Below are positions 13,143-33,083 of a stretch of 64,000 nt of DNA, piece after piece. Every line of letters begins with the position of its first letter. Positions within the stretch are counted from its first letter, which is position 1. The position numbers were made by a program, and so were the translations under genes. Source of the DNA: Flexibacter flexilis DSM 6793 (GTDB taxonomy: Bacteria; Bacteroidota; Bacteroidia; Cytophagales; Flexibacteraceae); assembly GCF_900112255.1 (NCBI RefSeq), contig NZ_FOLE01000004.1:62001-126000 (forward strand), written 5' to 3'. The notes under the pieces were generated by a model that had not been told where the DNA came from, ran no database searches, and saw only the letters and a program-made list of their open reading frames with translations.

Positions 13143-14147
13143 ATGAATTACAAATCAGTCACTTATACCTTTTTATTATTGTTTTTCTTGACCACTACGA
13201 GCTACGGCCAAGACGCGCAATTTACCCAAATCTACGCCACACCCCTGTACCAAAACCCTGCCATGTCAGGCATTTTGCACAAAAGCCGCTTGGCGGCCAA
13301 CTACCGCAACCAATGGACGGGCGTTCCTGCTCCTTTTACGAGCTACAACGCCTCTTTTGATACATATTTGTCCAAATACCAAAGCGGCGTAGGGCTTCTT
13401 TTGCACCGCACCAGCAACAGCAGTAATTGGAATACTACGTCGGTAAGCGGCTCGTATGCCTATCATTTGCGCGTGTCGCGGCAATGGGCAGTGTCGGCGG
13501 GTGCGCAGGCGGCCATGTCTTTCCGTAACCTCAATATCAGCGATTTAACTTACGGCTACCAATACAGCGGCAACGGTACTTATAGCCCTGTGGCCGACCC
13601 CGTACAGAGCGGCAATACTTCAAAACAATATTTTGACGGAAGTTTGGGAGCTGTGTTATATTCGGATAAAATGTGGTTGGGTTTGGCCGCACATCATCTT
13701 TTGCGGCCAGATGTGGGCATAGACCAAAGTCAAAAATTACCGTTTCGGTATAGCCTCAATGCAGGTTATCAAATTCCGCTGGAGGATATGCACCGCCTCA
13801 AACGCAACGAGGAGCTGACGCGCAATCTTACGTTTATGGCGCAATTTCAGCATCAGGGCACCGCCAACCAACTGGATTTGGGAGCTTATTTGCGCTACGA
13901 ACTATTAGTTACTGGATTGTGGTACAGAGGTTTACCAGTCTTAAGCAAATACCAGAAAATCAACCAAGATGCCATTGCCGCCATGCTGGGCATGAGCTTT
14001 GACGGGCTAACGATTGGTTACAGTTACGACCTTAGTTTGTCGGGCGTTACGCCACTGGGAGGCGGTTCGCACGAAATCGGGCTGGTGTATGTATTTGGAG
14101 ACGGACGCGCCTACCGAGGGCCTGGCCTACCCTGCCCAAAATTGTAA
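13143..14147 (+). CDS. PorP/SprF-family outer-membrane protein
   Basis: A 334-residue outer-membrane barrel protein. A signal peptide (residues 5-22, cleavage after YGQ) is followed by DAQFTQIYATPLYQNPAMSG, the diagnostic opening of PorP/SprF proteins, and by NYRNQW. The remainder is alternating aromatic/glycine strands ending with an outer-membrane-type beta segment. PorP/SprF paralogues associate with T9SS and often help retain a specific secreted cargo on the surface. No large adhesin is adjacent here, so the partner is unknown. The 286-base gap upstream separates it from the divergent TPR gene. Confidence 0.9.
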   Translation: MNYKSVTYTFLLLFFLTTTSYGQDAQFTQIYATPLYQNPAMSGILHKSRLAANYRNQWTGVPAPFTSYNASFDTYLSKYQSGVGLLLHRTSNSSNWNTTSVSGSYAYHLRVSRQWAVSAGAQAAMSFRNLNISDLTYGYQYSGNGTYSPVADPVQSGNTSKQYFDGSLGAVLYSDKMWLGLAAHHLLRPDVGIDQSQKLPFRYSLNAGYQIPLEDMHRLKRNEELTRNLTFMAQFQHQGTANQLDLGAYLRYELLVTGLWYRGLPVLSKYQKINQDAIAAMLGMSFDGLTIGYSYDLSLSGVTPLGGGSHEIGLVYVFGDGRAYRGPGLPCPKL

Positions 14148-16270: not shown

Positions 16271-16362
16271 AGTATTGTATTTTCTTTTAAAAAATTAAAG
16301 ACTTTCATAAAAAAATAAAAGCCCAAATCAAATGCGCTAAAGCGATTTAATAGGCTTTAAAA

Positions 16363-16396
16363 AAAAGAACGGCCTTTTGATGACCGTTCTTTTTCG
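16363..16396 (-). terminator. terminator of the receptor / surface protein / PorV-like operon
   Basis: On the minus strand AAAGAACGG / CCGTTCTTT with a T run, about 24 bases after the stop at 16420. A second weaker inverted repeat (AAAGCC...GGCTTT, 16316-16361) follows. Confidence 0.85.
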
Positions 16397-16419: not shown

Positions 16420-17511
16420 TTATAATTTCAAAATCAAGCTAATGGTATGCGTACCGCTATATGGGTTTGTAGAACGGAAAGAATAATCAAAACCTAAACT
16501 ACGGTGCGATTTTTCAGGAGAAGTTTCGGCAGTAGCACCTTCCTCTGTTGTTTTCTTTGTTCCTAAAAGACTAAATGGCAAATTCAGGGTTGCACCAAAA
16601 GTAGGGCCAGAATTTGCATCTGTTTTATTTGAAGTAAAGATTTGTTTTTGATAGTTCAGGCCACCACGCACTTGTACTAAATCACCAAATCCGTACTCAA
16701 GACCAGACTGCAAATTATCTTTTGTATAAGAATTTGATACAAAGTTTGCAGCAAGTGTCAGGCGATGTTCTGGGGCTAACTGAAAGTCGTAAGAACCACC
16801 AATATTTAGCAATGCTGGTATATCAAACTGAGCTGTACGGCTTTGAACAGTCAATCCAATTTGGTCGCGAGTACCTCTGAAAGAGAAGCCATCGCCACGA
16901 TATTGCATCTTAGGGCCTAGGTTACGAATAGCCGCACCAAACTTAAATTGTTTTCTTGCACCAGTTTGGTATTGTACACCCGCATCAAAACAAGCACCTA
17001 AGGCATTTGCATCAGGGATTGACTGAGAAACCAAACGCACCAATACACCAGCAGAGATAGAACCCGAGAATTGTTTGGAATAACCTACTCCTAAGTTAAA
17101 AAACTGAGGCTTAAAAGAGGAGCCAGTACCATCAGGCAATTCGTAAGTAGTTTCTATAAAATCCCCTAAGTTCATTGCGGTTACAGAAACACCTAAAACG
17201 CCCGTTTCACTAAGTCTTTGGCCTAGCCCAACAGAATTAACTTGAATACCAGAGCCGCTCATATAGCGTACGTTAGAAAGGACAAACTCTGTTTTTGAGG
17301 TATAGGCTAGCCCCGCCATATTCAAATTCATCGATTCCACTCCACGCACGCACGCTGTATTAGCACCAGCCCAACCAGAACTACGTCCCCAAGGGTTAAT
17401 TAGAAGCTCAGAGGCTCCGCCCTGCCCTCTTTTAACATCGTTACCAGCCATCAAAGGTGTCGCAACTGACATCGTGGCGGCAATAATATATGCAGTTAGT
17501 TTTTTATTCAT
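16420..17511 (-). CDS. PorV/PorQ-family outer-membrane barrel
   Basis: A 363-residue protein with a signal peptide (cleavage after LMA near residue 22). The mature start contains ELLINPWGRSSGWAGANTAC, and AGLAYTSKTEFVLSNVRYM follows; this ordering and the later beta strands fit the PorV/PorQ (UPF0164-like) family. PorV binds T9SS cargo sorting domains and carries them from the SprA translocon. This copy is probably a specialised paralogue, since it is the third gene of an operon behind a huge surface protein and a TonB-dependent receptor. It ends in a typical outer-membrane strand (ISLILKL). Confidence 0.85.
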   Translation of the reverse strand: MNKKLTAYIIAATMSVATPLMAGNDVKRGQGGASELLINPWGRSSGWAGANTACVRGVESMNLNMAGLAYTSKTEFVLSNVRYMSGSGIQVNSVGLGQRLSETGVLGVSVTAMNLGDFIETTYELPDGTGSSFKPQFFNLGVGYSKQFSGSISAGVLVRLVSQSIPDANALGACFDAGVQYQTGARKQFKFGAAIRNLGPKMQYRGDGFSFRGTRDQIGLTVQSRTAQFDIPALLNIGGSYDFQLAPEHRLTLAANFVSNSYTKDNLQSGLEYGFGDLVQVRGGLNYQKQIFTSNKTDANSGPTFGATLNLPFSLLGTKKTTEEGATAETSPEKSHRSLGFDYSFRSTNPYSGTHTISLILKL

Positions 17512-17588
17512 TTGAAAAAAGATTTTAATTCATCATTAAAGTAGTAGAGAGTGGATTATAATATCCATCTCTACTACGATGATTATCA

Positions 17589-20500
17589 TTAATTTTGCAA
17601 TGCATCAAGGTCTATTGGACGAACGCCACCACACCACTTAACTGTTTTCTCTCCCAATGAACCTGCATCTATGTGAATAAGGTAAACACCAGAAGAAATT
17701 GGAATACCTACTTGGTTTTTCAGATCCCAATCTTGAGAAGTAAGGCGGTTAGAACCCAATGAAGAAGCTGGACGATCATACTCCAACTGGCTCCATTGTT
17801 GGCTGCCACTTACACTAGAGTAATCCACATTATATTCACGAATCAGCGAGCCACCCAAGTTATAAATACGAATTCTACATTTAGTAGGCAAGTTCGTGAT
17901 TTTCACACGATTATCTACTTGAGAAGTTTCATAAGATGAGTACGCATAATAAGGGTTCGGTACCACACGAATCAAATCCAAAGCAGATTTCGCTACTTGA
18001 GTTTCATTGCGTTTAGCTTCCATTCCTTGCGAAGATATTGAATACGTTGGAATAGCCCGTGTAGATTTTTCTGACGCATTAGAAGACGCATCATACAAAT
18101 AAGGGGTATAAGATTTTTTAGCCCTCAATTTAAGCTTTGCTTCATTGGGAAGAGGATTACTTCTTGAGTAATCAATGGAAACCAATGGATTATCCAACAA
18201 TCCTAACACACCAACCCAAGAGATATTTTTCATCAGAACGGGATAAGCTCTATCTCTTGCTGTATTTGGGCTTGAAATGTTTTTGATAACATTATAAACA
18301 CTGTCCAATTTATACTCCATCCCTTTACCTTCATCGTACTTAGTCGGAACTACATAGATAAACGACTTAGCAGCAGCAAGAGCCACTTTAGAGGTAGGCT
18401 CCCATTTTAGGTTATTTCCATTCACTCTATCTGCCAGTGAAGATTCTGAGAACATCAAGTTCAGGCGAATACCTCTATCCAAATCTATGGCGTAGCCAGG
18501 GAACCAAGACATACCACGAGAAATTTGTGTAGTATCAAATGGAGATCTTGCATTCAAATCAGTTTCAAAATTATCGTTCAAGGAACGTAATCTACTCTTG
18601 AAGTTCTGTAATTTAACCAATCCTGTATCTACTTGTATCACTGGCACTCTAGTCCATTTCGATTTATCATTAGTAAACACAATATCCACGTTACCCATGT
18701 TATACAACGTTCTGTTATTTAACACATCAAAGATTCTATCAGGAATAGAAGAAGGATCATAATAGGCTATACCTCCACCAGCTGCATCAGGAGAGTAAAC
18801 ATTGGCGTAAGTATACGGGAAGAATGAGCCGTCTAATACCTTTGTCCATATCAAGGCAGGGTCGTCATAAGTGATCTTCTCCAAAAGAGCTGCATCTTTA
18901 GCAACATCAGAATTATACGAACGTTGAAACTGAAATGCTCCCCCGTTAGTAGCATCAGGAATTGTTACAAGCCATCGATATAGGGCAGTTGCAGGGAATT
19001 CAAGCCCTGAAGTAGCCAAATAACCATTTGTATAATCGTCGTAAACACGTTGACTCGGACTATGTGCATCGTTCAAAGATACAGCCAACCCACGGTTAGG
19101 GATTAACTCATCACCACCAATAGTCAATGTTTTCTTCAGATATATAGGTGTATTATCTTTCAGATCAATAAATGTAACATACTCTGCAGACACGAACTCT
19201 TCTGCTGTAGCAAAATTGGTAATCAAACCATTATTACGACGAACATTAAAAGCACCTTTGTTAGAAGTGTACGCTGCGAACTGACCAGCCTTATTACCTG
19301 TACTGGTGGATTTATTTTGACGTTGTTCACCAACAACAATAAATGTTCCACCCTCGTCTCCATTTAGCAATTTTACATCAACATTGACAAGGCTATCTTC
19401 TGTATTAACTTCTCTCACCACAACAGCTCTACCTGATGTTTGCGGGAATGAAGCACTAGCTGGTGTCACCCAAAGGGAACCTACTAATGTACTCGTTGTC
19501 GAAAATGCAGAAGCAGGTAAAGAAGATTCGATCGTATCGTTTATCTGAAGTTTTTCTCCGCCCACAGGTTTGTAAGCCAAACGACTTGTAATTTCTATTT
19601 TATACTGTGCACTAACTACAGATTTAGGATCGTATATTTTAACGGTAACAGGCGCACCACCTTCTTGGTACAAAAGCTCAGATTTATGAAAATTCTTCAC
19701 AATCTCTTGCTCATCATTTTCGCTTAAAGCCAACGTGTTACCGCTATTACCACTACCCGATAACCTTGTTACAGGCATTTCATAGCCAGACTTAGAAACG
19801 ATATCCGTTCCATATATTTCAGGATTAACTTTATGAGGAATGGCAGAATATATGCCAAGGTTCATATCCCCCTCAATAAATTTAGTATCATTCTTCGCAT
19901 TACCATTGTAAGCATAGGCTTTCACGTGGTAATAATACTTTTTATGATTAATCAATTTAGCACCAGTAAACGCATCTGTTTTCACAGTCAAGTATGGTTT
20001 AATACCTTTGTTTTCGCCATTTACTTTTAGTTGAGAAACAAGAGCATCAATTGTATAATCATACGTCTGATTAATGATTTTACTAACACCATCTTTCACA
20101 TCACACTGCATGATAAGACGTGCCTGCGTAGGGTCTGTAAGGTCTGTAACTGCGCTATTTGCTAATTGATAGAGCATATAACCTTGGAAGTGATAATAAA
20201 CATCACCGTCTGTAGCTTTAAGGCTTGGATCTCTTTCCTGATAAGTTTCTGTGTTTTTACCCAAATACTCATCGGGAGTAAGGCTAATAATTAACTCACC
20301 GTCAAGTTCTGTAATTTCCATATCAGGAGCGTTCGGGCCTTGAAGTCTTGAGAAGTTATTATCAAAACTTTTTTGAGCAATATCATCAGATTGTAACAAC
20401 AAGTTGTATGAACCTAGTGCTCCTCCTGAGTTAGCTTTAGCCCATACAACACCAATTGTCAATTCATTTACAGCACCTGGTAAAAGTGTAAATGGACCAC

Positions 20501-22064
20501 CTGACGACACAAAACGACGGTCACCAGGAGGATTGTCTGTTACAGTAGCTTCCGACCATTCGCTAAGCGTAAAATTAGGACCAGTTGTCAATACAGGATT
20601 TTGGCAAGTACCACCAATAGACCAACCACGAGTCAAATCCGATGAACCAGGGAAAATATATTTTGTTTTTGGAGCAGATGTTGAAACTGGAGTTCTTCCG
20701 ACTTTATAGTCATAGGTCATGGCAAGCCCATCACCCCAACGACCTTTTAGAAAATTATAGAACTGCGCTGGAGTATTTGGATCTCCTACACCAGCACCAG
20801 CACCGTTCGTAAATTTAGCGAAGCTCGACATCATAATAAGCTCACCTTCTTCATCTACTTCACAGTCCCTATCATTATCTATACCATCATTAGGGTCTGC
20901 TACTGCACCCCTGAAAAAGTCCACAGCAATGGTTGGTGGATTTTGACCATAGCCAGAAACCCCTTCATCATCATTGTCTCCATTATAGCATATCCCCAAA
21001 CCTCTTTCTACATCACAACCAACATAGTCATCATTAGCATTACCTAAATCTGGGTCAATAAATTGTGCAAAATAAGTACTATCCAATGTAACATTGCCTT
21101 TGTTTATTAGTTTTTGGCGATAAAATGTCATTGTATTAAGAGGCCCTGATGCCTGATAAGCAAAGCCCTCTGTTTGTATCTCCATACCAATGGCCGGAGG
21201 GGTTACCCCTCCGTTACTTTTCTTACCACCAGCATCATTGGTTATCCAAAATACAACCTGATCTGCGCCTGCTTGGTTTCCTACAGAATCAGTAACACCA
21301 GGAAGACGAGGAAACTCTCCTTGATCAGGTTGGTATATACCATCTTTATTCAAATCAACAAATCGGGCAGCATCATAAATTAACTGTGCTTGAAGCCCTG
21401 GATATTTGGCTGGGTCAATAAACTCGTTCCCTTTCGCAGGCCAGTTACGAATTGACTCATCGACCAGATCCATTTCTTCCTCAAGCAATGGGTTTTGTGT
21501 TAAATTCCTGCCTGCATCTTCCAATTCCTTTACATAGGCCTTAAAGGTATTGACAGTAGCGGCATTCACTTTAAACAAATGATTCCATGCATTGCAGCGG
21601 CTCTGAGAGGTAAGTGCAAGATTATTAGCTCCAGTACCATCATCCAACTGACCAGGGAAATAGGCCGTTTGATTACTTTGACCGAAAGTAATACCACAAA
21701 CATACTGTTGGGAAGTACCTGTTTTTATACCACCAACCCACACTGCACCCGAAAAAAGTGAATGTCTGCGAGGTTGAGCAGGATCAGTAACTTTAGGTAC
21801 TTCGTAACGAGGGCTTGAAGCCCCGTCCCAAAACATATCGCCTCTATTCAGCAACAAAGTGCGGACGTTATTGATATCAAGCTCCGCTCTTGCCGTACCA
21901 CGACTACACTCCGAAGTAGGAATTACCACATCAGTAGGTAAAGACGGCGAAGGCTTGGGAGGATTATTAGAATTATTATTCTGTGTTGGTGCCATTTTTG
22001 CCTGAGCTCCCATTGAGAGCATCAGCGCAAGGGCAATTCCATGCAAATAACTACGTTTATTCAT
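17589..22064 (-). CDS. 1491-aa T9SS-type surface protein
   Basis: A very large secreted protein. The signal peptide ends after AQA near residue 22, followed by an N/P-rich linker. Near residue 65, NNVRTLLLNRGDMFWDG, then YEVPK and SLFSGAVWVGG, resemble a family of long T9SS-exported surface proteins in Bacteroidota. Calcium-loop-like stretches occur (DLNKDGIYQPDQGE; DGIDNDRDCEVDEEGE). The C-terminal region has VVPNPYYAYS, RIRIYNLGG and SSGVYLIHIDAG, a sorting-domain arrangement, but the chain runs about 15 residues beyond the usual final Lys and ends PIDLDALQN. The gene begins 25 bases after the receptor gene and is followed by the PorV-like gene. Its function is unknown. Confidence 0.85.
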   Translation of the reverse strand: MNKRSYLHGIALALMLSMGAQAKMAPTQNNNSNNPPKPSPSLPTDVVIPTSECSRGTARAELDINNVRTLLLNRGDMFWDGASSPRYEVPKVTDPAQPRRHSLFSGAVWVGGIKTGTSQQYVCGITFGQSNQTAYFPGQLDDGTGANNLALTSQSRCNAWNHLFKVNAATVNTFKAYVKELEDAGRNLTQNPLLEEEMDLVDESIRNWPAKGNEFIDPAKYPGLQAQLIYDAARFVDLNKDGIYQPDQGEFPRLPGVTDSVGNQAGADQVVFWITNDAGGKKSNGGVTPPAIGMEIQTEGFAYQASGPLNTMTFYRQKLINKGNVTLDSTYFAQFIDPDLGNANDDYVGCDVERGLGICYNGDNDDEGVSGYGQNPPTIAVDFFRGAVADPNDGIDNDRDCEVDEEGELIMMSSFAKFTNGAGAGVGDPNTPAQFYNFLKGRWGDGLAMTYDYKVGRTPVSTSAPKTKYIFPGSSDLTRGWSIGGTCQNPVLTTGPNFTLSEWSEATVTDNPPGDRRFVSSGGPFTLLPGAVNELTIGVVWAKANSGGALGSYNLLLQSDDIAQKSFDNNFSRLQGPNAPDMEITELDGELIISLTPDEYLGKNTETYQERDPSLKATDGDVYYHFQGYMLYQLANSAVTDLTDPTQARLIMQCDVKDGVSKIINQTYDYTIDALVSQLKVNGENKGIKPYLTVKTDAFTGAKLINHKKYYYHVKAYAYNGNAKNDTKFIEGDMNLGIYSAIPHKVNPEIYGTDIVSKSGYEMPVTRLSGSGNSGNTLALSENDEQEIVKNFHKSELLYQEGGAPVTVKIYDPKSVVSAQYKIEITSRLAYKPVGGEKLQINDTIESSLPASAFSTTSTLVGSLWVTPASASFPQTSGRAVVVREVNTEDSLVNVDVKLLNGDEGGTFIVVGEQRQNKSTSTGNKAGQFAAYTSNKGAFNVRRNNGLITNFATAEEFVSAEYVTFIDLKDNTPIYLKKTLTIGGDELIPNRGLAVSLNDAHSPSQRVYDDYTNGYLATSGLEFPATALYRWLVTIPDATNGGAFQFQRSYNSDVAKDAALLEKITYDDPALIWTKVLDGSFFPYTYANVYSPDAAGGGIAYYDPSSIPDRIFDVLNNRTLYNMGNVDIVFTNDKSKWTRVPVIQVDTGLVKLQNFKSRLRSLNDNFETDLNARSPFDTTQISRGMSWFPGYAIDLDRGIRLNLMFSESSLADRVNGNNLKWEPTSKVALAAAKSFIYVVPTKYDEGKGMEYKLDSVYNVIKNISSPNTARDRAYPVLMKNISWVGVLGLLDNPLVSIDYSRSNPLPNEAKLKLRAKKSYTPYLYDASSNASEKSTRAIPTYSISSQGMEAKRNETQVAKSALDLIRVVPNPYYAYSSYETSQVDNRVKITNLPTKCRIRIYNLGGSLIREYNVDYSSVSGSQQWSQLEYDRPASSLGSNRLTSQDWDLKNQVGIPISSGVYLIHIDAGSLGEKTVKWCGGVRPIDLDALQN

Positions 22065-22089
22065 GATTGAAAAGGGTTTTGGTTAAGAT

Positions 22090-25000
22090 TTAAAAACTAA
22101 ATGAACAACCAATCCTTACTCTACGTGGAGTAACATAAAAATCTGGATTAGCTAATGCCATATTATAATACATAACATAAGCCTCAGGACTAGGCAACGT
22201 GCTGGCTACCGTTTGTTTACCATAATCAGAAGACAAGAAACCATCATCACTTGCCGAACCCGTACGGTCATAGACATTCAATGTGTTTTTAGCATTAAAC
22301 ACATTTTGAATATACAAATAAACATTCAAAATTTTCTTTCTCTTTCCTTCTTGAGCAAATTCAATATTGCGGTCAATACGCAAAGAGGTACGATTGTTCC
22401 AAGGAAGTCTGCTAGAGTTAATACCGCCCTTGATTTGGTCATTAGCACCCCATTGTGCACTGTTAGCAGTATATGGCAAACCAGAACCAGTATAGAATGT
22501 TGCATTTACACCCATGTTTTCAAATATTTTACCAAAAGCAGAAGTTGCATCACCTTTATTGATACGGTAATCCAAATTAAGTTTGATAGCATGACGTTGA
22601 TCATCATTAGATGCTACAACGTTACGAAGCGTCGGTGTAGAAGTTTGCAACAAACGGCCTGCAAAATCCGAAGCTGATGTTTCTGCAAATTGCAACGTAT
22701 AACTTGCCGATGCTTGGAAATTTTCCGAACGACGAAGCGTATATTCTAAACTCAAACTCTTTACAGTCGTGAAATCTTGATTTCCGTAAGTACGATACTG
22801 AGCAGTAGGATAAGCGCCTATTACGTTGACAATCTGAATCAAGTCCTTAATCTCGCTATAAGATGCCGTTAATTTAAGAGCTGAACGATCGTTTATTTGC
22901 TGATCAAAACCAACTTGATAGTCGATTTTCTTTTGTGGCAACAAATCTGGATTACCAAGCGTCTGAACACCTGACAATTGTCTCAAATTATAGTATTGCA
23001 ATGGACTCGCATAATTAAAACCTGGCGTAGGGCGTTGCGTAAGAATATCATAGTGAGCAAAAAAGTTTGTTTGCTCTGATACAGGGAACGAAAACGCAAC
23101 ACGAGGCATAAAATTCACTTGAGGCTTAAAATCTTTAAATGCATCTACAGTAATACCTCTATTTTGTTGCAAAGATTTAGCACTTTCACTCAAACTATTG
23201 GTGTTAAAAAAAGGATAAGCAGTACCTGCAATAATTTTCTGCTGAATAGAATTATCCTCTGTCCCATTGGCATTATACCATGTAGTTCCATTGCGATAGC
23301 CAACCACAGTTAGTTTGCTTTGCTCTACACCATCAGGATTAGAACTAACATACACTGCCCAATCATCACCCACGTTACCTGGTTTAACAGGAGACTTGTT
23401 ACTAAATTGAGAGAAATCAGTTTCGCCAACCAATTGTAAATTGGTGAAAGAGTATTTGTCTTTCAAAACAGGTTGATTCACATCAAATCTATCCACACGC
23501 AAACCAACATTAACAATCAAGTCATTGATTTCAAATTTGTCTTGGATATAGCCAGCCAAATAATTCGGACGGAATGCATCCATGTAGGTTTGGTCTGTAA
23601 AGAAATTATAAAAAGCTGCATTGCCTTTAGAACCTCTTTTTCTATTGCCAAAAATATCATACCCCTGATAGGTAGTATAAGGACTAGTATTGCTCAAATA
23701 AAGTTCTGAAGTACTAAACATATCCAACGACAATAAATTAGGGTCAATTTCGTCTATGTTAATCAACTCATTAATTGCCACTTCTTTGCCTCTTACCTGA
23801 CTGAGCTTTGCTCTTAAATTTTTGTCAAACGTGGTCTGAAGAGCTGCATTAGCAAGGTTCTCGCCACTTACCAAGATGCTACCATCAGCCAAGTGCTTAA
23901 GAGAATTTTCATCCACTACCGCAGTCAACAAACTTGTAGAAATATGAGTATTCACTTGGTTTCTGGCTGCTTGCCACAAATTACCTCTTACAGCAAATTG
24001 AGATGAAACTCTTTGTTCAAATTCACCACCAATACGGATTGAGTGATTTTTAATATCAAAACCCGCTTGCAATGATGCTCTGTATTGCTCTTGGTTTGTC
24101 TTGCGATAACGAGTTGTTTGCTGACCCAAGGTATAATCAGATCCTGACCCTGAAATAATAGCATCTGTTCCAGCTATATTACCATTAAGACCTGATTGAT
24201 ACATAGAACCCATATAAATACCGTTTCCATTCACAGCACCGCCCAAAACAGAAAGAGCATCCAGATTGTAAAAAGAGCCTCCTGTATAATCTTGAATAAT
24301 CGTGTTGTAACGACCGCCTATCGCATTCGGGCCATCAGGCGTAAAAGTAAAGCCTGAGTTAAGCGGATCATTATCGCTGACAAAACCCTGCAAAATGCTA
24401 CTTCCTTTTACATAGTATTTTTTACCAGCCAAAGCTATTCTTTCCGTAGTACCATCATTATGCACTAAGCTAAGTGTATCTCCAAAATTTGATGCCAACG
24501 CCCAACCTTGGTTAGTTGTTGTATCAAAATCAGCTAACGCTTTTTTATCTTTAAATTTACCGTAGTAGCTGTATTGAAATAGTTTATCTTTCAAATCAGC
24601 GTCTTGCGTAATGTTAGTTACATTAGAATAATCCGCTTGCACTTGATAGAAAATATTTTTCACCAAAGCACTTTTCGCATCAGCACCACCGATATGCTTA
24701 AATGTCTGACGGAAACGAACAAACGCATTATAGTCATACGTTATATTTTGGTCGTTATTATCATAGTTAAACACGTTGTAAGTCAAACCTGCTGAATTAC
24801 GCGAATTGGTATAATTGAAGTTACCCCCAACAGTCAAAATAGAATTTTCAGTTGGTTGAAAATCAAAACTTGCATTCAACTGAACACCTCCACTGGCACT
24901 ATTCGGGCGATATTTCACTTTCTCAAATTGTTTAAGAGAAAATGTATCCGAAACACTGCGGAAGTTAGAGGCCTCAGACGAGAAGAAAATAGGATTTTTC

Positions 25001-25932
25001 TTCATCAATTCCAAAGCACTGTCTTTTACTTTCCAATAATCAGTGTAAGAAGGATTGCTTTCGCGGCTATGATTAAACTGTACAGTCGCAAAATAACCAA
25101 GCAATGTACCTGCATTACTTTTCACAGCACCCGTTGAGTCCAACTTAGCTTTACGTTTAACCAGTGGTCCTGTAAGAGTTACACCACCAACTTCTTGATT
25201 CCATTTATTAAACGGACGTGAGGTTTCCAAGAAAGCACTACCCGAAGTTTTCTCCGCAGCACCTTTAGTAGTAATGTTAATAACAGCACCTAAGGCATCA
25301 CCATACTGAGCAGGTACACCACTAGTAATCAACGAAATTTCTTCGATAGATTCCACTGGAGGGTTTGAGCCACCATATTGACGAACACCGTTAACAAAAA
25401 CGATATTATCACCAGTACGATTACCGCGCACACTAATACCAGCACCATCATCAGCAGACATAACACTTGCCTGCGTAGAAAGCAATGAGTTTACGCTACG
25501 CGTAGGCATTTTGGCAATGTCTTTGGCTGTGAGTTTCGCACCACCCGATGTCTGGTCTTTGTCAACCAATGGGCGTTCGTACACAACATCTACTACTTGC
25601 AAAATTTCTGCATCAGTAGGAAGTGTAATATTAAGAGAGGTTGTTGTCTCTAAATTGATAACAACGCCTCGTACGTGTTTGGTCTGATAACCAACACACG
25701 AAACCTCCACGTCGTAAGAACCTGGCGTTAGAGGTGATACCGAATAGTGGCCATTAAGTTCGGCTTGATTGCCGCCTTTGAGTTGTCCACCTGACATAAC
25801 TTTGATTGTCGCAAAGGGAACAGGCTGTTTGTCTTTATCCAATATGTAGCCCGCCAACTTACCATTCTGAGCGAAGGTAGCCAACGATGCAAGGATAAAC
25901 AGGCCCATAATGAGTAATCTTTTTCTCATCAT
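22090..25932 (-). CDS. TonB-dependent receptor with carboxypeptidase-regulatory-like domain
   Basis: A 1280-residue outer-membrane receptor. A signal peptide (residues 1-22, cleavage after FAQ) precedes a CarboxypepD-regulatory-like beta sandwich (about 24-110). The plug follows with SVRGNRTGDNIVFVNGVRQ and PAQYGDALGAVINITTKG. The rest is a barrel ending in an aromatic strand (IGCSFSF). This SusC-like domain order is typical of Bacteroidota, but no SusD follows; instead the next genes encode a 1491-aa surface protein and a PorV-like barrel. The ligand is unknown. A good -33/-7 pair lies about 50 bases upstream. Confidence 0.92.
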   Translation of the reverse strand: MMRKRLLIMGLFILASLATFAQNGKLAGYILDKDKQPVPFATIKVMSGGQLKGGNQAELNGHYSVSPLTPGSYDVEVSCVGYQTKHVRGVVINLETTTSLNITLPTDAEILQVVDVVYERPLVDKDQTSGGAKLTAKDIAKMPTRSVNSLLSTQASVMSADDGAGISVRGNRTGDNIVFVNGVRQYGGSNPPVESIEEISLITSGVPAQYGDALGAVINITTKGAAEKTSGSAFLETSRPFNKWNQEVGGVTLTGPLVKRKAKLDSTGAVKSNAGTLLGYFATVQFNHSRESNPSYTDYWKVKDSALELMKKNPIFFSSEASNFRSVSDTFSLKQFEKVKYRPNSASGGVQLNASFDFQPTENSILTVGGNFNYTNSRNSAGLTYNVFNYDNNDQNITYDYNAFVRFRQTFKHIGGADAKSALVKNIFYQVQADYSNVTNITQDADLKDKLFQYSYYGKFKDKKALADFDTTTNQGWALASNFGDTLSLVHNDGTTERIALAGKKYYVKGSSILQGFVSDNDPLNSGFTFTPDGPNAIGGRYNTIIQDYTGGSFYNLDALSVLGGAVNGNGIYMGSMYQSGLNGNIAGTDAIISGSGSDYTLGQQTTRYRKTNQEQYRASLQAGFDIKNHSIRIGGEFEQRVSSQFAVRGNLWQAARNQVNTHISTSLLTAVVDENSLKHLADGSILVSGENLANAALQTTFDKNLRAKLSQVRGKEVAINELINIDEIDPNLLSLDMFSTSELYLSNTSPYTTYQGYDIFGNRKRGSKGNAAFYNFFTDQTYMDAFRPNYLAGYIQDKFEINDLIVNVGLRVDRFDVNQPVLKDKYSFTNLQLVGETDFSQFSNKSPVKPGNVGDDWAVYVSSNPDGVEQSKLTVVGYRNGTTWYNANGTEDNSIQQKIIAGTAYPFFNTNSLSESAKSLQQNRGITVDAFKDFKPQVNFMPRVAFSFPVSEQTNFFAHYDILTQRPTPGFNYASPLQYYNLRQLSGVQTLGNPDLLPQKKIDYQVGFDQQINDRSALKLTASYSEIKDLIQIVNVIGAYPTAQYRTYGNQDFTTVKSLSLEYTLRRSENFQASASYTLQFAETSASDFAGRLLQTSTPTLRNVVASNDDQRHAIKLNLDYRINKGDATSAFGKIFENMGVNATFYTGSGLPYTANSAQWGANDQIKGGINSSRLPWNNRTSLRIDRNIEFAQEGKRKKILNVYLYIQNVFNAKNTLNVYDRTGSASDDGFLSSDYGKQTVASTLPSPEAYVMYYNMALANPDFYVTPRRVRIGCSFSF

Positions 25933-26304
25933 ACTTTCTGTTTGTTAGGGTTAGCGCACATTTTTGATAGTTAAGAAGGTTTCAAAGATAGGTAGCAGAT
26001 TTCACAAAAGCAATACAAAATCCTGCATTTTTTTCAGCCAATGTATTTTTATTTTGCAATATATCAAACAAACGATATCTTACAACATACTGATTATCAA
26101 CACAAAAACTTATATTTATTTGCAATACAAATAAATATAGTATAAAATATATCACAATATACACTGTAGTAAAATAATTGTATCATTCTTCATAGTACAA
26201 AATTTTCTTTAATCATTTCTTAATATTTTTTTAATAGTAGATTGTCGCTTATATTGTGTTTCAATCAAAAAAAATCCGCTATTTTATTTATATTTTCATT
26301 TAAT
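25933..26304. other. 372-base AT-rich intergenic region
   Basis: Apart from the minus-strand promoter at 25983-26013, this stretch is very AT-rich with no convincing gene. A 60-codon minus-strand ORF at 25982-26164 has low-complexity, codon-atypical content. The plus-strand promoter that once drove proB would lie here, but I see no clear -7 element. Confidence 0.6.
25983..26013 (-). promoter_or_regulatory. promoter of the TonB receptor operon
   Basis: On the minus strand TATCTTTG (25990-25983) is a full TAnnTTTG -7 match, with TTG at 26013-26011 after a 20-base spacer. This predicts a start near 25976 and a leader of about 44 bases. Confidence 0.6.
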
Positions 26305-27355
26305 ATGCTTTCCTATAAAAGAATTGTTATCAAAGTTGGATCTAATGTACCCACCACAACCAATGGTTAATTAGATACCTAAACAATGGCGCAAATTACC
26401 CTTGTCAAGTCTTGGTGCTACGAAATCATTCTGGTTTCTTTGAGAGCAGTGGCAGAAGGGCGTAAGCCTTTTGCCCAACATCAAGAGCCTGTCGCAGCAC
26501 GTCAGGTTTGGGCTGCTACTGGCCAAGTGCGACTCATGAAAACCTGCCAAGAAGGCTTTGCCAAACTAAATCTGCATTGTGCTCAAGTATTAGTAACCAA
26601 AGAATATTTCAGAGATAGGCTTCATTATCTAAACATGCAGCAATGTTTTAACGCATTTTCAAAACAAAATATTGCGCCTATTGTCAACGAAAATGATGTT
26701 ATTGCTGTAACAGAACTTATGTTTACGGATAATGACGAACTGGCAGGCCTTGTTACAGCCATGACCGATGCCGTACTTATCCTGGCTAACGTTGATGGCA
26801 TTTACAACGCGCCTACCTCCTCCCTAACGCACAGTTAATCAGCCGAATAGAGCCTAATAAGTTAAATTTTCTGCCTTCATTTCTAGCTAAAAATCAGGTG
26901 CAGGGCGTGGCGGTATGATTACCAAAAGCAATACAGCCAAAAAATTAGCGCGTTTGGGCATTGCTGTACACATCGCGAATGGCAAACAACCTACCGTCGT
27001 CGAACAAATTTTGCAAGGAAAACCAGTTGGTACATTTTTTGTTCCACAAACACCCACAGCAGCCCCGCAAAACGCTGGATTGCCCATACAGAAGGCTACA
27101 CCAAAGGTATTATTTACATCAATGAAGGTGCAACAACGGCTTTAACCTCTGAAAACAAAGCTGTTAGTATTCTGCCAATCGGTGTGGTGCGTATGAACGA
27201 AGATTTTCAGAAAGGAGATATTTGCGCATAGCTCAAGAAAATGGCCAAGTGCTAGCCATTGGCAAGGCGGAATACAATGCAGAAAAGCCGCCGAAAAAAT
27301 AGGAAAAGCACGCCAAAAACCATTGGTTCATTACGATTTTTTGTTTATTTTATAA
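26305..27355 (+). pseudogene. proB: decayed glutamate 5-kinase gene
   Basis: Translation from 26305 gives a recognisable glutamate 5-kinase start (KRIVIKVGSNV), then two in-frame TAA codons at 26368 and 26380. The same frame continues with a kinase core including LHYLNMQQCF, IVNENDVIAV and FTDNDELAGLV up to about 26838. The phosphate-loop motif expected as SSGA reads SLRA. Further frames carry SGAGRGGMITKSNTAKKLA and then a PUA-like C-terminal domain (RWIAHTEGYTKGIIYINEGA, then LPIGVVR and KPLVHYDFLF), so at least four more frameshifts are needed. ProB makes glutamyl-5-phosphate in proline synthesis. No proA lies next to it. The damage is too widespread for sequencing error. Confidence 0.93.
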
Positions 27356-31202: not shown

Positions 31203-33083
31203 TTAATCAAAAACACCATGTTTGCTATACAGCAAGCCGATCGAAAAACCAAAGCGTAACGGAAACGAATATTTGCTGGTGCGCACTTGCTGAAAAACCA
31301 ATGCATCAGGGACATTCGTTTGGCGATAAGCCGCCGCAATGCCTGCATACATATCCGCGGAAAGCGTTAAATGCCGACTCAATGTCCAAAAAAGGCGATT
31401 CCCTGCCGTAACAGCCAACTCTATCCTAGTTTCATTGGCCTTATACTCTTTGTAATAAGAGGTTAAAGAGTCTGTCATTTCTGTTACTTTCGCCGAATAA
31501 TCTACCTGCGAGAAACGCACTTCCTGCGAAATATAAAAACTACCTGCGCCTCCATTAGGGTGGTAAAGTTTTTGTCTGAAATCTACATTAAAGCCATTTT
31601 TATACAACCTATCGGGCTGAATAGTGCCACCATGTTCGCTAAAAAACGGATTGCGCAAAACCGTATAACGCAACTCATAACCCAAACGCTCATGCCAATA
31701 ATATTCTATACTGATGGGCAATTCATTGAACATAATCGGCAGCGGATTGAACGAAAGCATTAACCCTTTCGACTCATTGATGCGTTTTACAAAATAGCGA
31801 GGCAAACGTTTCTTTTGAATAAAATCAGGCTTTCCCGTCGGTTTTACGTGTACCACAGGAAGTGGCTTCACCGTATCGGCAGGAGCCGGATTATGTTTAC
31901 TTACAGGCAATTCTTTATTATAAAAAGTTTTGTAATAGCCTGCAAATGAACCATCTTCGTTATACAATGACCACTGCCCTACTTTCTGGCCATCTTTGAG
32001 CTTGCCAGTCATTTTGATTGTGCCGTTTCGGTACATTCCTTTATACAAACCTTCGCCATTGAGGTATTCGCAACGACCTTCTACTACGCCATCCTCATAA
32101 TAATAGGTCCAAAGGCCGTGATTTTTGCCATTTTGCAAATATCCTTCTATCCGTAATTTACCATTGTCGTAATATTCTTTGTAAGGCCCATTTCCATTCT
32201 CAAAAAAGCCCTCGCCCATGAATTTACCAGACTCATAATACAGCCGCCAATGGCCTTGTTTTTGTCCTTTTTGCTGTTGGCCTTCCGAACTGAGTTTGCC
32301 CGACTCATAATAATATTTCCAGTTGCCGTCTAGCTCGCCATTGCTATATGCACCTTCGCTAGCCAACACGCCATTTGCATGATAGAATCGCCAATTCCCT
32401 TGTTTTACGCCATTTTTTTCCAAACCTTCGGCTTTGAGTTTTCCGTTTTCATGGAAATACTGCCATAGGCTATCGCTCTTCCCGTTGTCAATAATGCCTT
32501 GCATTTTGGGTTCGCCAGTATCATAGACTTCCTTATAAAAACCACGCCCGCGCACATAAAGCGCAGTTGCTTTTTTATTTCCATTTTCGTAATAATACGT
32601 CCAAAGGCCTTCATTTTTGCCGTCTTCAATAATGCCTTCGCTCTTGGCATTTCCATTTTCATAATAAAATGCCCAAAGACCAATTTTTTGGCCATCGCGC
32701 ATCATACCTTTACGGCTCAATTTGCCATTTTCATAAAAATATTTCCAAGATTCTTGTTGCACGCCATTACGCAGCGTGCCCTTCATTTTGGGTTTTCCGT
32801 TTTCATAAAAATACTCCCAATAACCCGTCGTTTTGCCTTTGGTATATTGGCCTTGCGTTTTGGTTTGGCCATTATAGTAATACTCCACAAAATCGCCGTG
32901 TTGTATGCTGGGCTTATTTTGCATTACAAAATAAACTTGCTTGGGTTTATGTTTAGCCTTGTCATAATATTCCACCATTCGTTTGGTAGGAATATTGGCA
33001 GCCGTATGCTGAGCCATTGTATTTTGTACAATCGCCCACAGCATTACTACCAACAAACAAGTTATAATATTTTTATCTCTCAT
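31203..33083 (-). CDS. MORN-type (YwqK-like) repeat protein fused to an outer-membrane-like barrel
   Basis: A 626-residue protein. After a signal peptide (residues 8-24, cleavage after MAQ) come about 14 tandem units of roughly 23 residues (63-390), each with a YxENGK core and a KxEG/KMxG-type turn ending in G-W-Y-like residues. These are MORN_2 repeats, as in YwqK-type proteins. Residues 400-420 are Pro/Lys-rich, and the last ~200 residues look like an outer-membrane beta barrel with alternating aromatic strands, ending near GLLYSKHG. I do not recognise this combination by name. Its start overlaps the NUDIX gene by 11 bases and nadD follows 36 bases downstream. Confidence 0.85.
   Translation of the reverse strand: MRDKNIITCLLVVMLWAIVQNTMAQHTAANIPTKRMVEYYDKAKHKPKQVYFVMQNKPSIQHGDFVEYYYNGQTKTQGQYTKGKTTGYWEYFYENGKPKMKGTLRNGVQQESWKYFYENGKLSRKGMMRDGQKIGLWAFYYENGNAKSEGIIEDGKNEGLWTYYYENGNKKATALYVRGRGFYKEVYDTGEPKMQGIIDNGKSDSLWQYFHENGKLKAEGLEKNGVKQGNWRFYHANGVLASEGAYSNGELDGNWKYYYESGKLSSEGQQQKGQKQGHWRLYYESGKFMGEGFFENGNGPYKEYYDNGKLRIEGYLQNGKNHGLWTYYYEDGVVEGRCEYLNGEGLYKGMYRNGTIKMTGKLKDGQKVGQWSLYNEDGSFAGYYKTFYNKELPVSKHNPAPADTVKPLPVVHVKPTGKPDFIQKKRLPRYFVKRINESKGLMLSFNPLPIMFNELPISIEYYWHERLGYELRYTVLRNPFFSEHGGTIQPDRLYKNGFNVDFRQKLYHPNGGAGSFYISQEVRFSQVDYSAKVTEMTDSLTSYYKEYKANETRIELAVTAGNRLFWTLSRHLTLSADMYAGIAAAYRQTNVPDALVFQQVRTSKYSFPLRFGFSIGLLYSKHGVFD
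31914..32897 (-). repeat. tandem MORN_2-type repeat block inside CDS 31203-33083
   Basis: About 14 units of 20-24 codons encode residues 63-390. Cores such as YFYENGK, YYYENGN, YYYESGK and YYDNGK recur at regular spacing. The repeats are in protein sequence and do not form exact DNA direct repeats, so this is not a CRISPR array. Confidence 0.88.

Follow-up and report, generated by a model that had tools for sequence, protein, structure and literature searches.

The stretch analysed here, hereafter the window, comprises 64,000 nucleotides of Flexibacter flexilis DSM 6793 (contig NZ_FOLE01000004.1, positions 62,001 to 126,000), and our subject is a run of three genes on its minus strand, encoding a TonB-dependent receptor, a large surface protein that we call the cargo, and an outer-membrane barrel:

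22090..25932, minus strand: TonB-dependent receptor, 1280 amino acids (open reading frame and Pfam domains)
17589..22064, minus strand: surface protein of 1491 amino acids, the cargo (open reading frame; no Pfam or NCBIfam family)
16420..17511, minus strand: outer-membrane barrel of the PorV/PorQ family, 363 amino acids, proposed as a dedicated carrier and anchor (open reading frame, NCBIfam, tree)

An earlier note on this DNA, made from its letters and open reading frames (ORFs), had described a receptor with a CarboxypepD-like domain, a 1491-residue protein of the type IX secretion system (T9SS) type and a PorV-family barrel, and this description holds. The ORF list places the three genes in one direction with intergenic gaps of 25 bases (receptor-cargo) and 77 bases (cargo-barrel), the receptor exceeds the Pfam cut-offs for CarboxypepD_reg (51.6 bits) and Plug (34.2 bits), and the barrel scores 133.6 bits against the PorV/PorQ family model NF033709, whose cut-off is 90 bits. 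The T9SS nature of the 1491-residue protein is supported by its C-terminal domain as modelled, which is discussed below.

The trio is widely conserved. Among the 59 genomes searched (that of the window included), the large protein was matched in 20, over long stretches in 17 and weakly in three, and 10 of the 20 relatives' regions hold a complete trio, while a further five reach a contig end and show two of the three genes. A larger set, the named loci, consists of the best 80 of at least 581 confirmed stretches; as the best of a longer list, it over-represents close relatives, some of its members are the same contigs as the relatives' regions (e.g., L104 and L048; handles beginning with L, G and C are ours, for stretches, genomes and contigs), and its 77 long cargos reduce to 72 when near-copies are removed (<90% identity). 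The titles of these loci include assemblies of Cytophagales, Chitinophagales, Flavobacteriales, Bacteroidales and Saprospiraceae, among others. Of their 81 cargo genes of at least 1000 amino acids, 65 are preceded by a receptor gene and followed by a barrel gene (in one case with a small intervening ORF), with median gaps of 23 and 22.5 bases; for another six, one partner is present and the contig stops on the opposite side. Across the phylum, a profile of the cargo, for which up to two candidates per genome were scored, matched 214 of the 395 genomes drawn, the weakest of these possibly through the sorting domain only. Thirty-eight regions were chosen from the 214 positive genomes among the matches listed, mainly strong ones (L199 was left out, as its cargo gene was lost in ORF calling), and 32 of the 38 cargo genes lie in a complete trio, two reach the end of the stretch and four are without a partner (L195, L204, L209, L211). 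One stretch (L220, genome G388) carries a complete trio and then a second receptor and cargo running into the stretch end, as tandem units.

The trio has also been duplicated as a unit. Three genomes of the phylum outside the class (G318, G276, G404) hold many PorV-like genes, and the surroundings of the PorV-like matches were taken for 20 of 20 in G318, 14 of 14 in G276, 8 of 13 in G404 and none of 11 in G305. These regions contain 42 PorV-like genes above 50 bits, 31 of which are the last gene of a receptor-cargo-barrel trio (14, 10 and 7 in the three genomes); two of the remainder stand behind a receptor without a cargo and nine have neither. For these 31 trios, the cross-genome best matches of cargo and barrel pointed to one and the same trio in 46 of 62 cases (null mean 6.8, maximum 25 in 2000 permutations), those of receptor and cargo in 48 of 62 and those of receptor and barrel in 42 of 62, with Mantel r of 0.84 to 0.93 vs. 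permutation maxima of 0.25 to 0.30. The co-duplication and Mantel figures therefore indicate that the three genes have been passed on and multiplied together as a set. It is because of the counts in named loci, picked regions and paralogous trios that the trio stands beyond chance, so that a chance run of genes is excluded, and the same counts exclude conservation in close relatives only. The earlier note had proposed the trio as a unit, and we find it conserved far beyond close relatives. Its inheritance as one unit across the phylum suggests a way of displaying and anchoring surface proteins that so far has no name.

The cargo itself gave zero Pfam or NCBIfam matches at E ≤ 1, and its N-terminus, judged by eye, resembles a Sec signal. 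Two AlphaFold2 models were made, covering residues 45–860 (predicted local distance difference test score, pLDDT, 87) and 800–1491 (pLDDT 76), and the fold searches with them bear mainly on residues 53–575 and 1354–1482. The following features are distinguished:

17619..18005, minus strand: T9SS-type C-terminal sorting domain, immunoglobulin-like (Ig-like), cargo residues 1354–1482 (model, fold and sequence searches)
17592..17636, minus strand: C-terminal tail after the conserved Lys1476, 15 residues in the window cargo (model and alignment; low model confidence)
20340..21908, minus strand: cargo residues 53–575, a beta-sandwich region like the N-terminal parts of GH94, GH15 and GH116 enzymes (model and fold search)

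The predicted sorting domain finds its best fold match in PorZ (5m11; Z 10.5, 2.4 Å, 87 residues, 24% identity) and its second in PorU (6za2; Z 9.1), and the sorting domains of mirolase (7.7) and RemA (6.9) score level with unrelated common Ig folds. The solved structures that its sequence matched at E ≤ 10 were PorZ (0.3) and PorU (0.48), and no others. Among 73 members of the cargo family, 64 matched the PorZ model at E ≤ 0.1, 62 the type A sorting-domain model, at this level rather than at its 23-bit cut-off, and 50 the PorU model; the type B model TIGR04131 was absent among the 17 families matched at this level. The window cargo matched the PorZ model only, weakly and within the sorting domain (21.7 bits vs. 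260 needed), and with no match at E ≤ 1 to the type A model TIGR04183 it falls below the cut-off of 23 bits; its modelled structure does have the C-terminal Ig-like sorting domain that is a trait of type A. The modelled domain thus supports the 1491-residue protein as a T9SS protein.

Type A domains are reported to have a nearly invariant Lys not far from their C-terminus, which contacts PorV in ways that vary according to the authors (PMC10994853). All 76 named-locus cargos whose end is complete keep such a Lys, as does the window cargo. The Lys is followed by exactly 13 residues in 74 of the 76 and by 16 in the other two, and among 65 further cargos (the window cargo included) by 13 residues in 37, 12 in one, 15 in the window cargo and 5 in 26. 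Lys occupies this position in 19 of the 26 members of the last group, the short-tail set, and the long tail is usually eight residues longer than the short tail. Thirty type A proteins of the window genome stop, by eye, within a few residues of the last strand, and all nine cargos that have a complete end and no barrel directly behind them keep 13 residues. The tail was modelled with low confidence, which might fit a segment that folds solely on its partner.

By curated scores, the barrel is none of the named members of its family: it reaches 54.4 bits with the PorV equivalog model NF033710 (250 needed), 62.3 bits with the PorQ model NF033711 (220 needed) and 36 bits with the PorV2 model NF052325 (325 needed). 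A profile of it (A2) matches the PorV chain 6h3i_F at 5.8e-11. We built a tree of the barrels from a sample that includes every fourth named-locus barrel, by a short search that left 28 weak forks. On this tree, one change separates the barrels paired with 55 long-tail cargos from those paired with 26 short-tail cargos (Shimodaira–Hasegawa-like approximate likelihood ratio test, SH-aLRT, 99); none of 500 shuffles gave so low a number of changes. Both groups are placed apart from PorV, PorQ and PorV2, PorQ and the barrel of contig C5 of the window genome being long branches of unsure placement. Because the match between tail type and barrel clade amounts to a single split, it is compatible with a barrel that recognizes the tail and is no proof of such recognition.

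Two further loci of the window genome resemble parts of such a unit. Contig C2 encodes a short-tail cargo of 698 amino acids (L073:4900-6996), and contig C5 a receptor-barrel pair (L069:5662-9599) flanked by an M28 peptidase gene in front and the gene of an NHL-repeat protein behind. Within the regions of G318, G276 and G404, the best relatives of these genes are the units L233 and L261 (identity 44–45% for the cargo, 38% for the receptor and 34–35% for the barrel), in each of which cargo, receptor and barrel lie together in one stretch. Judging from these sequences, there seem to be two units in the window genome, a long-tail one and a short-tail one whose cargo gene lies separately.

With respect to export, the window genome encodes SprA, PorU, PorV (453 bits), PorQ (356 bits), PorV2 (497 bits) and a genuine PorZ (C9:155205, 541.8 bits), as well as a FadL-like barrel (L071). 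An SprA gene is present in all 214 cargo-positive genomes vs. 303 of 395 overall; since the lineages without SprA lack it as a group, this co-occurrence is consistent with T9SS export and is not independent proof of it. At E ≤ 0.001, type A matches in the window genome number 118, the cargo of the window being absent from them, against seven PorV-family matches, so most type A cargos cannot have a PorV-family carrier to themselves. Two recent papers present the general carrier PorV as recognizing all type A domains, with dedicated carriers belonging to type B (PMC12618676; PMC12635249). A review describes the domains of PorU and PorZ as remaining uncleaved while PorV and PorQ bind them, and proposes that domains of this sort may be shielded by cognate PorV-like barrels (PMC10202324).

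The receptor has a divergent barrel, in that PF00593 was not matched and the protein lies outside the 22 PF00593 matches of the window genome. It had been called SusC-like, a description that we abandon together with the SusC/SusD reading of the operon: at E ≤ 1, no SusC/RagA model of Pfam or NCBIfam matched the receptor and no SusD model matched its partner. A loose text pattern for a TonB box is present in 49 of 97 receptors and is too loose to inform. The earlier suggestion that the receptor senses or imports is retained in its second half only, as import is plausible from family membership, whereas the domains found above cut-off, CarboxypepD_reg and Plug, do not speak for sensing.

Taken together, we consider it reasonably probable that the three proteins form a three-part outer-membrane unit, in which the barrel is the dedicated carrier of the exported protein and the anchor that keeps it on the surface beside the receptor. 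The large protein would leave the cell via Sec and then the T9SS translocon SprA, from which the operon's own PorV-family barrel, and not the general PorV, would draw it by its C-terminal domain. The barrel would remain bound to the cargo, so that the domain would not be cut off, and the barrel with the uncut domain would anchor the cargo in the outer membrane, as PorQ does for PorZ and SprF for SprB. The TonB-dependent receptor would adjoin the cargo-barrel pair and probably import what the cargo binds. A T9SS-displayed cargo would then take the place held elsewhere by a lipoprotein of the SusD or BtuG type, the surface partners in SusCD and BtuB-BtuG pairs. As an inference, the earlier proposal of a PorV paralogue serving this cargo finds good support in the type A-like domain, the gene order, the co-duplication and the agreement of barrel clade and tail. 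More tentatively, and with rather less than even confidence, we suggest that the trio represents a third mode of T9SS carriage: a clade of the PorV family apart from PorV, PorQ and PorV2, each barrel of which may be dedicated to one type A-like cargo, read its tail of fixed length (13 residues vs. 5) and keep it as a lid on the outer face of a TonB-driven receptor. Such units would be a counterpart of SusCD assembled by the T9SS, phylum-wide and multiplied many times over in some classes.

The same genes can be read in other ways. The barrel might be a mere shuttle that hands the cargo to PorU, which would cut the domain and attach the cargo to lipopolysaccharide or release it. In its favour, the predicted fold of the domain is that of type A, the type A Lys is kept, and PorU, PorV, PorQ and PorZ are all encoded in the genome; however, the best-matching domains, those of PorZ and PorU, are reported as uncleaved in part of the review literature (PMC10202324), and a cargo that only passes through has no obvious need of a carrier of its own where 118 type A matches face seven of the PorV family, so we regard a shuttle as unlikely. 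Another reading makes the barrel a FadL-type channel, whose substrate may be hydrophobic or of another kind; the trio would then be an uptake system, with the cargo exported by the ordinary PorV. PorV is itself described as a FadL homologue in a section of one paper (PMC12578637), and the operon contains a TonB receptor and the genome a FadL-like barrel. However, the family match of our barrel is to PorV/PorQ and not to FadL, and the split of cargo tails follows the barrel tree, which would be unexpected of a mere channel, although co-inheritance could also give it; we judge this quite improbable.

Alternatively, the three genes may have common regulation and vertical inheritance, with no joint complex and a receptor that works alone. 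Genes for greA and a HIT protein adjoin the trio on its 3' side in 57 of 61 named-locus cases, as in the window, which is what an inherited neighbourhood would give. Among the picked regions, however, they were found in five of the same class (L185–L189) and none was matched in L190–L223, and outside the class the trio is found at many different sites within a single genome and has been duplicated as a whole, which leaves this reading with very little probability in our view.

Several observations weigh against the dedicated carrier and anchor that we favour. No trio was found in five of the 20 relatives' regions (L057, L061–L064), which include tandem arrays of cargo genes without a barrel, and 10 of the 81 named-locus cargos fall outside the trio arrangement (for two of them one side was out of view). 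The genomes of eight of these 10 hold a barrel scoring at least 308 bits with the profile of the window barrel (for L108, in a trio on the same contig), while two (G446, G447) have weak PorV-family matches only (56.8 and 29.8 bits). The frequency of the greA-HIT neighbourhood in the named loci means that the position of the trio is partly inherited, and the match between tail and barrel clade, as one evolutionary split, could be explained by plain co-inheritance. The co-occurrence with SprA is confounded by taxonomy, and the suggested contact with the receptor draws on gene order and co-duplication only. As for the sorting domain, its third fold match is the peptidase Vpr (Z 8.7), to our knowledge unrelated to the cargo, and flagellar FlgD models match 37 of the 73 cargo family members (E ≤ 0.1). 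The domain thus has an Ig-like fold, and it is assigned to the T9SS because PorZ and PorU come first and because it stands at the C-terminus. Genome G018 illustrates the cargo arrays: four tandem cargo genes without receptor or barrel (L061:6995 to L062:7171) accompany a complete trio elsewhere in the same genome (L060). Type B orphan cargos share one shuttle, as described in part of one paper (PMC12618676), and the misfit cargos with a barrel elsewhere in the genome parallel such orphans.

The region of residues 53–575 has a predicted fold that we take to be the one called the beta-supersandwich. Its best match to GH94, GH15 and GH116 enzymes has Z 18.5 (255 residues aligned, 3.3 Å, 12% identity), and identities range from 6 to 12% among the matches listed. 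What we take to be the catalytic part of such enzymes is a bundle of a dozen helices, and nothing like it is seen in either cargo model. We dropped the idea that the region is an enzyme, as the likeness lies in the fold alone, and a fold in common says nothing of function.

Two candidate transcription signals flank the operon, both of them claimed in the earlier note:

25983..26013, minus strand: Bacteroidota-type promoter-like site with a 20-base spacer, TTG-N20-TATCTTTG, before the receptor gene
about 16361..16395, minus strand: intrinsic terminator 3' of the barrel gene (hairpin folding)

The terminator is borne out as a 14-pair hairpin with a terminal T run, part of whose T's are paired (−19.9 kcal/mol, z = −6.4; none of 200 shuffles equally stable); a simple consensus terminator scan of the window did not list the hairpin at 16395-16361. 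The promoter site exists as claimed, labelled by what we take to be the Bacteroidota consensus; however, the pattern has three matches in the window vs. 1.8 expected by chance (at least three in 27 of 100 shuffles), so that its position alone speaks for this site, and the promoter was dropped as evidence. Just upstream of the receptor, positions 26386-27250 (plus strand) hold an amino-acid-kinase fragment (PF00696, 55 bits) with an interrupted reading downstream, which resembles what is presumably a decayed glutamate 5-kinase gene. A PorP/SprF-family barrel, the carrier type known for type B cargo, is encoded about 2 kb past the trio (13143-14147, plus strand, 209.8 bits), and a 626-amino-acid protein with MORN_2 repeats (107.8 bits) at 31203-33083 (minus strand).

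If the proposed unit is real, widespread dedicated PorV-family carriers for type A-like cargo would alter the rule of one general carrier, would offer a reason for the abundance of PorV paralogues, and would link protein secretion to TonB-dependent uptake. Among the matches listed by searches of open-access PubMed Central papers, we found no description of the trio (preprints lay outside the scope).

Based on its sequence and models, the trio would belong among the carrier-bound T9SS surface proteins, already known as a kind. It resembles PorQ-PorZ and PorV-PorU in that a PorV-family barrel would hold a surface protein by a retained domain, as part of a review describes for these pairs (PMC10202324), and in that the sorting domain of the cargo is closest to those of PorZ and PorU. 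It differs from them in that curated scores assign the barrel to neither PorQ nor PorV, the passenger is not PorZ, the tail is usually longer than that of the short-tail set, a TonB receptor lies in the operon, and some genomes hold many paralogous units. The type B systems SprB-SprF and PG1035-PorP-PorE likewise consist, in the account given in part of one paper, of a cargo and an adjacent cognate carrier, sometimes with a third operon partner (PMC12618676). The trio shares with them the pairing of one cargo with one adjacent carrier, whereas its carrier is of the PorV/PorQ family, its sorting domain is type A-like, and its third partner is a TonB receptor and not PorE. With SusCD and BtuB-BtuG, finally, the trio has in common a TonB-dependent receptor with a surface partner encoded alongside, although here that partner would be a T9SS-type protein with its own barrel rather than a lipoprotein.

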